Below, one piece after another: positions 3,152 through 52,419 of a stretch of 64,000 nucleotides of DNA; within the stretch, counting starts at the first letter, position 1; every line of letters starts with the position of its first letter. This DNA is from Sulfurovum sp. TSL1 (lineage in GTDB: Bacteria > Campylobacterota > Campylobacteria > Campylobacterales > Sulfurovaceae). The position numbers and the translations under genes were made by a program. The stretch covers positions 975,106-1,039,105 of the forward strand of contig NZ_BPFI01000001.1 in NCBI RefSeq assembly GCF_019972135.1, read 5' to 3'. A model generated the notes under the pieces. It was not told the origin of the DNA, made no database searches, and was given only the letters and a program-made list of their open reading frames with translations.

Positions 3152-4060
3152 TTACTCCTTCACTCTGTAATTACCGCATACTGCAGGTTCCAATCCTGAT
3201 TTTCGTCCAGCTTTTATCCCTTGAATAGTTGCTAGTAAAGGATTCAACGATCTATCAGCTCTTGAGTAAGAAACTCCAAGTAACACCAACCTCATAAATG
3301 CTGTCATTCTGTGATACCATTTTAGGTGTCTTGTGATTACCAAACTTCTGTTGTGTGCAAGTCCTCTCATGTATCCGGGGATATCACTTAACACTCTACA
3401 ACCACCTGTATCTGCAGCTAAATGTAACAGTCTCGCATCTGCTTTAAAAAGTATTTTATAGCTTAACTTTTTTATCCTTAACGACAGGTCTGTCTCTTCA
3501 TACAAAGCTGCACCTACATTGAGTACCTCATCAACACCATTCACTTTTTCCATAACTTCTTTTCTGACACTAAAGTTCCCACCCGGAACGTGTGAAACGA
3601 TTTGATCATGTTTGCTGGCAAACCCTCTATGAGGAGTGCATGTCCATGGATGAAAACTCCCTGATGGTTCCCTCGCATCAAGGCCTCTGTGTTGTTCATC
3701 TATTCCCCCGCCTACAAGACCAACCTCAGGATCTTCATAACAGCTTGCATGATTTTTAATAAGAAACTCGTTACTTCTTATATCATCATCTATGTATAAA
3801 ATAATTTCATATTTGGCATTTTGCCAGCCAAAATTTCTTGCCTGAGGCAGACCTTTAAATCCAAGGTTTCTAAAGTATCTTATTTTGCCAGGTGTGTTTT
3901 TTACCAGCTCTTCCACCTTTTCGTTGATATTATCTGATTGGTCAACCACAAGGATCTCATATTTTTCAAAATCCTGATGTAGCATGTCATTAATAGAATC
4001 ATATAAAAACTCATCCCTATTTAAAGTAGGGATTACCACACTTACTCCGAGTTCATTCAT
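3152..4060 (-). CDS. Glycosyltransferase family 2
   Basis: GT2-family enzyme of 302 residues. The start LGVSVVIPTLNRDEFLYDSI and the motif EILVVDQSDN form the nucleotide-binding half. The metal site is in YEIILYIDDDIRSN, near residue 93. EETDLSLRIKK (around residue 188) matches the conserved ED/ETDL acceptor-side motif with the catalytic acid. No clear transmembrane helix is visible apart from a weak hydrophobic patch near residue 258. It overlaps the upstream GT4 gene by 4 bp (ATGA), a sign of translational coupling. It probably adds one sugar of the repeat unit; linkage unknown. Confidence 0.88.
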   Translation of the reverse strand: MNELGVSVVIPTLNRDEFLYDSINDMLHQDFEKYEILVVDQSDNINEKVEELVKNTPGKIRYFRNLGFKGLPQARNFGWQNAKYEIILYIDDDIRSNEFLIKNHASCYEDPEVGLVGGGIDEQHRGLDAREPSGSFHPWTCTPHRGFASKHDQIVSHVPGGNFSVRKEVMEKVNGVDEVLNVGAALYEETDLSLRIKKLSYKILFKADARLLHLAADTGGCRVLSDIPGYMRGLAHNRSLVITRHLKWYHRMTAFMRLVLLGVSYSRADRSLNPLLATIQGIKAGRKSGLEPAVCGNYRVKE

Positions 4061-5193
4061 ACATTTTCCTCTATCGCCTTAAATACTTTTTCACTAAAGT
4101 GTTTCCAGGTTGCTTCATTAAGTACTCGCTGTCTGGCTTTCATTCCCTCTTGTTTGAAAACCTGTGGTTCAACTACAAGTTGTTTGAAATAGTGAGCCAA
4201 TTGATGATAATCATTCCTTTCTATCAGCCAACCACCATTTTGATGCTTGACAGCATCAGGTATACCCCCCTGATTTGAACCGATAGCAGGAATTCCCGAA
4301 GACTGCGCTTCTAAAAATACCAGTCCAAATCCTTCAACTGACTTTTGATCTTTTTCCTCTCTGGTACACAAAACAAAAAGATCACTTGCCTGATATACTT
4401 TAGGTAGATCATCCTCTTCGATAAATCCATACCAATGGATGTACTGATCAACGTTTAGTTCAATAGCCAGTTTTTTTAACTCTTTCAGATAACTACCTCG
4501 ACCTATGATACAATAACAGAGCTCATCCAGGGTTTTATGATCTAAAAGTGCCAATGCCCTTAGTACAGCATCATGAGCTTTATGCTTAACGATTCGTGAA
4601 GTTGTGAGAATGATCTTTTTATCTATCGGTAAATTTAACTCTTCTCTAACACTTTTTTTATCCTCAACTGGGTAAAACCTCTGTTCATCTACACCTAGTG
4701 TACATACTGTAGTATTGACAGTTGGAAACTGCTCTAAAATGGTGTTTTGAGTATAGTGGCTGTTACATATGACTAGTTTGGCTCTTGAGAGTACATATTT
4801 TCTCAACCAAGATAAAATAGTGTTTTTGAATGTTTTTTCGCCTTGCATGATATCATTACCATGAGCTAAGACTACCACATTTTTATAGCCTGAAAGTACC
4901 GCGATGAGTGCTTCAGGATGCCAGACTCCCGTGATGACCAATGTATCTTTAGGATACTTTCTTAAAAGCTTATAAGATTCAAACTCTTTTAAAAACCTTT
5001 TGGGTGAAACCCGCTTTATGGGATATAGATCATCTCTGTATCCTTTTTCTATCTCTCTTTCCTGACTTATCACTTCTACATCCCACCCGTTATGTATAAA
5101 CTGCTTGACGATCTCATCACAAAGCCTTGATATACCACCCTCTAGTGGTGGAAAGTCATAACTGAAAAATAAAAGTTTATTTTTTATCATCAT
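4057..5193 (-). CDS. Glycosyltransferase family 4
   Basis: GT-B fold glycosyltransferase, 378 residues. The N-terminal acceptor loop is FFSYDFPPLEGGISRLCDEI. The donor domain contains TTSRIVKHKAHDAVLRALA, VIGRGSYLKELKKLA, and the nucleotide-sugar site DLFVLCTREEKDQKSVEGFG followed by LVFLEAQSSGIPAIGS, with the E-x7-E spacing of GT4. It resembles PimB/mannosyltransferase-like enzymes. As manC lies in the same operon, GDP-mannose is one plausible donor, but this is inference. It overlaps the next upstream gene by 17 bp, unusually deep, yet both reading frames are intact. Confidence 0.9.
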   Translation of the reverse strand: MMIKNKLLFFSYDFPPLEGGISRLCDEIVKQFIHNGWDVEVISQEREIEKGYRDDLYPIKRVSPKRFLKEFESYKLLRKYPKDTLVITGVWHPEALIAVLSGYKNVVVLAHGNDIMQGEKTFKNTILSWLRKYVLSRAKLVICNSHYTQNTILEQFPTVNTTVCTLGVDEQRFYPVEDKKSVREELNLPIDKKIILTTSRIVKHKAHDAVLRALALLDHKTLDELCYCIIGRGSYLKELKKLAIELNVDQYIHWYGFIEEDDLPKVYQASDLFVLCTREEKDQKSVEGFGLVFLEAQSSGIPAIGSNQGGIPDAVKHQNGGWLIERNDYHQLAHYFKQLVVEPQVFKQEGMKARQRVLNEATWKHFSEKVFKAIEENV

Positions 5194-51967: not shown

Positions 51968-51995
51968 AAGCATATCCGTCATGGTGGATATGCTT
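51968..51995. terminator. Terminator-like hairpin between yebC and the micro-peptide genes
   Basis: Perfect 10-bp stem AAGCATATCC/GGATATGCTT with an 8-nt loop. On the minus strand it is followed by TTTTCCC, so it best serves as terminator of the two peptide genes that end at 52014. It may also end yebC, whose stop is 43 bp before it. Confidence 0.65.
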
Positions 51996-52013: not shown

Positions 52014-52151
52014 TTAATAAAATGTCATCAATAGATGCGGTGAATCCTCATCAATATAGATCCCTGCAGTATCAGACTGTGCCATATGATGTGCCGATGC
52101 ACTTGATGCCAAACCGATAGCCAAAAGCAATAGTGTTGCTAATCTTTTCAT
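52014..52151 (-). CDS. Secreted micro-peptide A (45 aa)
   Basis: 45-residue product: MKRLATLLLLAIGLASSASA is a textbook signal peptide with cleavage after ASA, leaving HHMAQSDTAGIYIDEDSPHL and LMTFY. ATG at 52151 with a GGA-containing leader (AAGGATTGATATG on the minus strand). Almost identical to peptide B just upstream, so a recent tandem duplication under protein-level constraint. The mature His-His start and acidic DED segment may bind metal. No family recognised. Confidence 0.75.
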   Translation of the reverse strand: MKRLATLLLLAIGLASSASAHHMAQSDTAGIYIDEDSPHLLMTFY

Positions 52152-52167
52152 ATCAATCCTTATTCAA

Positions 52168-52302
52168 TTAAAATGTCATCAAAAGATGCGGTGAATCTTC
52201 ATCGATATAGATACCTGCAGTATCAGACTGTGCCATGTGATGTGCCGATGCACTTGATGCCAAACCGATAGCCATTAGTAATAGTGTGATTAATTTTTTC
52301 AT
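52168..52302 (-). CDS. Secreted micro-peptide B (44 aa)
   Basis: 44 residues: signal peptide MKKLITLLLMAIGLASSASA, then HHMAQSDTAGIYIDEDSPHL and LMTF. The mature part equals that of peptide A except for the final Tyr. ATG at 52302 with AAAGGA nearby. A longer frame to 52419 exists, but the signal peptide sets this start. The two genes are 16 bp apart and share a downstream hairpin. Likely periplasmic or released; function unknown. Confidence 0.75.
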   Translation of the reverse strand: MKKLITLLLMAIGLASSASAHHMAQSDTAGIYIDEDSPHLLMTF

Positions 52303-52389
52303 TCTTTGAATCCTTTCTTTTTTAAAGATGAGGAAGTATAGAATAAAAGTATGAAGAGAGTGTGAAGAGATATCGGATAGTGTTGTGTG

Positions 52390-52419
52390 ATGATCACAGC
52401 CTGGATAGTCTGTGATCAT
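52390..52419. terminator. Hairpin downstream of the ABC-F gene
   Basis: Perfect 10-bp stem ATGATCACAG/CTGTGATCAT with a 10-nt loop, 16 bp past the ABC-F stop. There is no T run on either strand, so it may be a 3'-end stabiliser, a weak terminator or a regulator site (TGTGATC-N-GATCACA-like) for the peptide genes just beyond. Confidence 0.4.

Follow-up and report, generated by a model that had tools for sequence, protein, structure and literature searches.

The window, by which we mean the whole 64-kb stretch of DNA that was analysed, carries two adjacent genes for nearly identical peptides. They belong to a real, previously uncatalogued family of peptides, predicted to be exported, of sulphur-oxidising Campylobacterota. 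The peptide genes are very probably members of a regulon, and the best explanation of this regulon would be a small envelope-stress regulon with the peptides as its exported effectors. As read from the DNA, its half-site differs from lineage to lineage along with the linked two-component system, and the peptide and DUF2202 genes keep sharing one half-site.

Two tandem peptide genes in the window

Both peptide genes lie where the sequence-only reading had placed two adjacent genes with near-identical mature peptides. They are on the minus strand and are supported by sequence, relatives, and codon comparison. Gene 1 (52168..52302) encodes 44 residues, with the signal peptide codons at 52302-52243, the mature peptide HHMAQSDTAGIYIDEDSPHLLMTF at 52242-52171, and the stop codon at 52170-52168. 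Gene 2 (52014..52151) encodes 45 residues, with the signal peptide codons at 52151-52092, the mature peptide HHMAQSDTAGIYIDEDSPHLLMTFY at 52091-52017, and the stop codon at 52016-52014. Each is preceded by a Shine-Dalgarno-like AAGGA, located on the minus strand at 52311..52315 for gene 1 and 52157..52161 for gene 2, which is kept in relatives. The two open reading frames form a 134-nt direct repeat of 91% identity, 151 bp apart, and are the only two copies in this genome. Both precursors are of the Sec type, and the predicted cleavage between ASA and HH gives mature peptides of 24–25 residues. In the AlphaFold model of the precursor, a helix covers the signal part, and the mature part is of low confidence without a confident fold.

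The mature parts agree at 24 of 24 residues and are separated by five synonymous and no nonsynonymous differences (dS 0.46, dN 0). The signal peptides differ by three synonymous and four nonsynonymous changes.

Behind gene 2, a terminator-like hairpin (AAGCATATCC-N8-GGATATGCTT, then TTCCC) was found by folding at 51968..51995 on the minus strand. It has a 10-bp stem, a folding energy of -13.7 kcal/mol, and a z of -2.5. The hairpin noted earlier after the genes is present, though its T tail is weak and a strict terminator scan did not list it. Similar hairpins lie 3' of the peptide genes in three relatives (G003, G004, and G027). On the other side, a 13-bp inverted repeat (ATGATCACAGCCT/AGTCTGTGATCAT, 52390-52419) lies between an ABC-F ATPase gene and the peptide promoter. 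It is probably the terminator of the ATPase gene, and related genomes have similar hairpins at the matching place. The span first proposed for the locus, 52014-52302, holds both genes but leaves outside the promoter box at 52334-52366, which is its most informative part.

Distribution and conservation of the peptide family

Homologues occur in 10 of 78 Sulfurovum genomes with one to six copies each, one of the ten (G098) being degraded. When 397 genomes from across the phylum were searched with a profile, the peptides were detected only in the window's genus and in one other family of the order, which we infer to be Sulfurimonadaceae; a closer search of this second family found them in 24 of 200 genomes from six genera. 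The homologues to be looked for elsewhere in Campylobacterota are thus at hand, and because of them the pair of open reading frames is more than chance. From 59 gene contexts we collected 51 different precursors, which represent 42 different mature peptides. Weak matches (E of at least 0.04 in the first genus search and at least 0.001 in the second) were left aside, because they mostly cover the signal-peptide part of larger open frames. Searches of Pfam, NCBIfam, PHROGs, PADLOC, and PDB sequences, and of viral, plasmid, and phage collections, yielded no relative of the peptides, and Rfam gave only chance-level matches for the peptide locus.

The mature peptides are 24–29 residues long across the family. 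His1, His2, Ala9, Gly10, Ser17, and His19 are invariant in all 42, the invariance of His1, Ala9, and Gly10 being partly owed to the collecting pattern. Position 7 is Asp or Glu in 41 of the 42 peptides, position 20 is Leu or Trp, and position 24 is Phe in 38. Lys, Arg, and Cys are absent throughout, and all 42 peptides are acidic with a net charge of -1 to -6 without counting His. A cleavage of the AxA/HH type, predicted from the sequence, would leave a free His at the mature N-terminus, the residue that coordinates Cu in N-terminal His copper sites. Among the subtypes are HHMAQSDTAGxxIDEDSPHLLMTF, HHMAxY(D/E)DAGxxIPxxSPHLxMxF, HHxSPSxxAGGNMSxxSGHLxLxF, and HHPAPVDQAGSGIPDNSGHWDA.

In the AQSDTAG subfamily, pN/pS is 0.13 for the mature part and 0.39 for the signal peptide. 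Together with the dN of 0 between the two window copies, this ratio upholds the earlier suggestion that selection acts on the mature part. In the HHM groups, the mature part is clearly under stronger selection than the signal peptide; in the HHxSPS group the difference is slight, and the HHPAPV group does not show it. The start, the Shine-Dalgarno sequence, and the signal-peptide architecture are conserved across the two families.

Across more than 25 different neighbourhoods, the peptide genes occur by themselves or in tandem, and the genes around them vary. They are dispersed and, except for one case in G437, unlinked to the kinase. In the neighbourhoods examined, no gene for immunity, modification, or export is found next to them repeatedly, which speaks against modified peptides and bacteriocins, because such peptides normally have partner genes. 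We rejected a mobile element as the source of the dispersed copies, because no such element was recognised and the genes nearby differ. The degraded HHPAPV-type copy of G098 (L069, G098:C72, about 3870-4100) has lost its whole signal peptide and one half-site of the box, and its mature part is intact. In G564 (L201 and L213, G564:C1:2169514-2170759), a two-gene unit of HHMSVYDD and HHPSPSDT types occurs as two consecutive copies, which makes four peptide genes.

A promoter box shared with DUF2202 genes

The promoter box upstream of gene 1, TTCACAC-N4-TTCATAC-N8-TATACT, occupies 52334..52366 on the minus strand. Its half-sites, 52366-52360 and 52355-52349, are 11 bp apart in the place of the -35 element, and the -10 element is at 52340-52335. 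OmpR-type regulators use half-sites 11 bp apart in place of a -35 element. The box is conserved in relatives and shared with DUF2202 genes; its pattern has this sole match in the window and none in 100 shuffles. When three mismatches were allowed, four genomes yielded the box at 23 places and the reversed pattern at none. The box places that we looked at belong to peptide genes, to DUF2202 genes, or to the stretch separating small secreted-protein genes from a two-component system, TCS-1. The strict box, a pattern written after the sites had been seen, is present in 46 of 55 peptide upstream regions versus 0.42 in shuffles, and the remaining nine regions belong to second tandem genes or are near misses. 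We also considered a phosphate (Pho) box on account of the 11-bp repeats, and dropped it because the box matches lead to DUF2202 and secreted proteins.

The half-site depends on lineage: the window's group has TTCAY, G029 and G065 have GTAACA, and the second family has CTAACA. The leader from box to start measures 71–74 nt in the HHPAPVDQAG-type genes (L020-L024, L058-L062, and L071-L075), versus 26–35 nt in nearly all others. At unrelated loci of one genome, genes of this same type are flanked by almost the same sequence. The second family has other 11-bp direct-repeat boxes with T-rich half-sites, which precede genes named by eye as SoxX-like, DUF302-like, and NosL-like; the loose box matched them at L161, L162, L166, L169, L170, L174, L177, and L178. 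Those before SoxX-like, DUF302-like, and some NosL-like genes probably belong to other OmpR-type regulons.

Linked two-component systems and DUF2202

TCS-1 consists of an OmpR-type response regulator and a kinase (L102:8202-10042). In the window's own genome, the TCS-1 regulator is encoded at C1:623201-623872. Fifteen genomes of the genus have an orthologue of the regulator with at least 70% identity, and a box of TTCAY-N6-TTCAY type adjoins the regulator in 15 of 15, the only copy at L119 being weak. Peptides are missing from ten of these genomes, three of which are at least 99% complete; conversely, TCS-1 is absent from G029 and G065, which do have peptides. In the latter two, the GTAACA box precedes a DUF2202 gene located directly behind a different response regulator/histidine kinase pair, with a NosL gene adjoining; in G065, the DUF2202 box and the peptide box agree in their first 20 bases. 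The second family has the CTAACA box before both peptide genes and DUF2202, and at a locus with a similar regulator/kinase pair and similar neighbours, CTAACA often stands ahead of the regulator or of a gene for a small secreted protein. Because the GTAACA and CTAACA boxes precede both genes in these lineages, the peptide and DUF2202 genes have their box in common even where the system is another one. Three box settings of DUF2202 were found (L102/L103, L104, and L105), with DUF2202 assigned by Pfam. In G004 and G063, both incomplete genomes, the DUF2202 genes examined lack a clear box, and TCS-1 has no close orthologue.

DUF2202 (PF09968) has a solved homologue, MJ0754, which is ferritin-like. 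Several DUF2202 precursors begin with a twin-arginine-like leader (RRSFL or RRGFI, read from the sequence). By gene content alone, the peptide–DUF2202 association is weak: DUF2202 is present in all ten peptide genomes of the genus versus 52 of 78 overall (hypergeometric p about 0.013). The peptide is dispensable for DUF2202, as 42 of the 68 genus genomes without peptide have DUF2202 as well.

The DUF2202 clusters also contain single-haem Cyc2-like proteins, a small c-type cytochrome, and a LuxR-type gene. The Cyc2-like proteins (430–460 aa, without a Pfam match) adjoin DUF2202 clusters of two families and are encoded at L102:4651-5949, L182:1517-4234, L184:6254-8956, and L185:1543-4241. Cyc2 is defined by AXPXFAR[Q/K][T/Y] before one CXXCH, PXL after it, and a length of at least 365 aa (PMC8406198). 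Compared by motif alone, the L182 protein has AVPAFARQT...CFACH and that of the window's own genome has ALPAFATQT...CKACH, with the proline of PXL replaced. At L102:2605-4562, a choice-of-anchor F protein with a JDVT-CTERM sorting signal is encoded, and its gene adjoins a gene that we read by eye as CPBP-type membrane protease-like.

Proposed role of the peptides and alternatives

We propose that genes 1 and 2 form one transcription unit, which would be activated by an OmpR-type response regulator binding the two half-sites that replace the -35 element. The same regulon would provide the exported ferritin-like DUF2202 protein and the small secreted proteins. After export, signal peptidase would release an acidic peptide with a free N-terminal His-His, which may act in the periplasm or at the surface. 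There it would bind a metal, most likely copper or iron, via His1, His2, His19, and Asp/Glu, and could serve as a cheap metal buffer or carrier alongside DUF2202. Metal binding is the simplest reading because the peptides combine a predicted N-terminal His-His, the invariant His19, acidic residues, and an export signal. Of the three functions that the sequence-only reading had offered, this one has the composition of the peptides and the co-regulation with ferritin-like DUF2202 in its favour, and it keeps the standing of a suggestion. For the whole explanation, namely the regulon plus an exported metal-binding peptide, we consider the chances even. Its most specific form is tentative and somewhat doubtful: Cys-free, unmodified metallopeptides, encoded by dispersed genes in multiple copies, would buffer or carry metal for an exported ferritin-like protein and would stay co-regulated with it while two-component system and half-site are exchanged between lineages.

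Rather than a metal, the peptides might bind a protein partner outside the membrane. DUF2202, a porin-cytochrome, and the outer-membrane assembly machinery are examples of such a partner, and the conserved S-P-H-L-L-M-x-F end would be the strand used for recognition. This would agree with the C-terminal half being conserved like the N-terminus (Ser17, His19, Leu/Trp20, and Phe24 in 38 of 42) and with the control shared with DUF2202. However, most DUF2202 genomes are without peptides, and a protein partner alone leaves the invariant N-terminal His-His unexplained; we regard this reading as unlikely.

Lower still we place the view that the peptides serve as signals outside the cell or modulate, by feedback, the histidine kinase that controls them. 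They are small predicted exported products under two-component control, multicopy, and variable in sequence between lineages, which makes the signalling role suggested earlier possible. It is less likely because peptide and TCS-1 each occur without the other, in the two and the ten genomes described above, and the genes are dispersed away from the kinase locus in all but the G437 case. We judge it quite improbable.

The bacteriocin-like role fared worse. Secreted antimicrobial peptides directed against neighbours would fit short exported peptides with several sequence types per genome, and one peptide gene, in G412 only, is divergent to a TolC-MacA-MacB-like operon. Such a role is disfavoured because the peptides are acidic without Lys or Arg (42 of 42) and no partner gene for immunity, maturation, modification, or export recurs next to them; moreover, selection is purifying, not diversifying. 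It is very unlikely. That the locus is untranslated, as a regulatory RNA or spurious frames in repeated DNA, would suit a short transcription unit with a hairpin behind, but is hardly credible given the codon-level selection, the translation and signal-peptide architecture kept across two families, and Rfam matches at chance level only.

Peptides, DUF2202, and small secreted proteins thus define a small regulon of widespread sulphur oxidisers, and its DNA box can be read from the sequence. What DUF2202 does and what signal DccRS-like systems respond to thereby become directly testable. The regulon also looks like a clean case of one that holds together while its regulator and half-site change.

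Comparison with known systems

Cationic antimicrobial peptides and bacteriocins carry positive charge, whereas our peptides have -1 to -6 without His; this acidic charge further speaks against a typical antimicrobial peptide. The HvfA/bufferin metallophores, which are RiPPs, are alike in their short Sec-type precursor and metal-related setting. They differ in having modified core Cys, absent from the 42 mature peptides, and a modification enzyme next to the precursor, absent beside the peptide genes examined. Three members weakly resemble HvfA/bufferin-type entries of NCBIfam (E 0.084), a resemblance that probably comes from the signal peptide. As to PF09968 with MJ0754, the co-regulated partner genes are members and the peptides are not.

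CrdA, a target of the CrdRS system, is a secreted protein. In its description, an OmpR-type system with a secreted target, it resembles our case. CrdRS of Helicobacter pylori is an OmpR-type system that acts in copper homeostasis and nitrosative stress (PMC9449129).

The closest known arrangement, by analogy, appears to be the DccRS regulon of Campylobacter jejuni (Cj1223c-Cj1222c). It differs in two respects: among 397 genomes across the phylum, the peptides were found only in the window's genus and one other family, and the half-site is not TTCAC-like in the other peptide lineages. According to Wosten in 2010, the DccRS box is reportedly WTTCAC-N6-TTCACW over the -35 region. This box resembles TTCAC-N6-TTCAY of the window and TCS-1 relatives. 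DccRS, an OmpR-type system, switches on a small number of genes whose products are periplasmic or membrane proteins (PMC9449129; PMC7118207), and here too the candidate targets are predicted exported peptides, DUF2202 proteins with export signals, and small secreted proteins. MacABC is linked to DccRS in C. jejuni (PMC11365321); here, a TolC-MacA-MacB-like operon lies divergent to one peptide gene, in G412 only.
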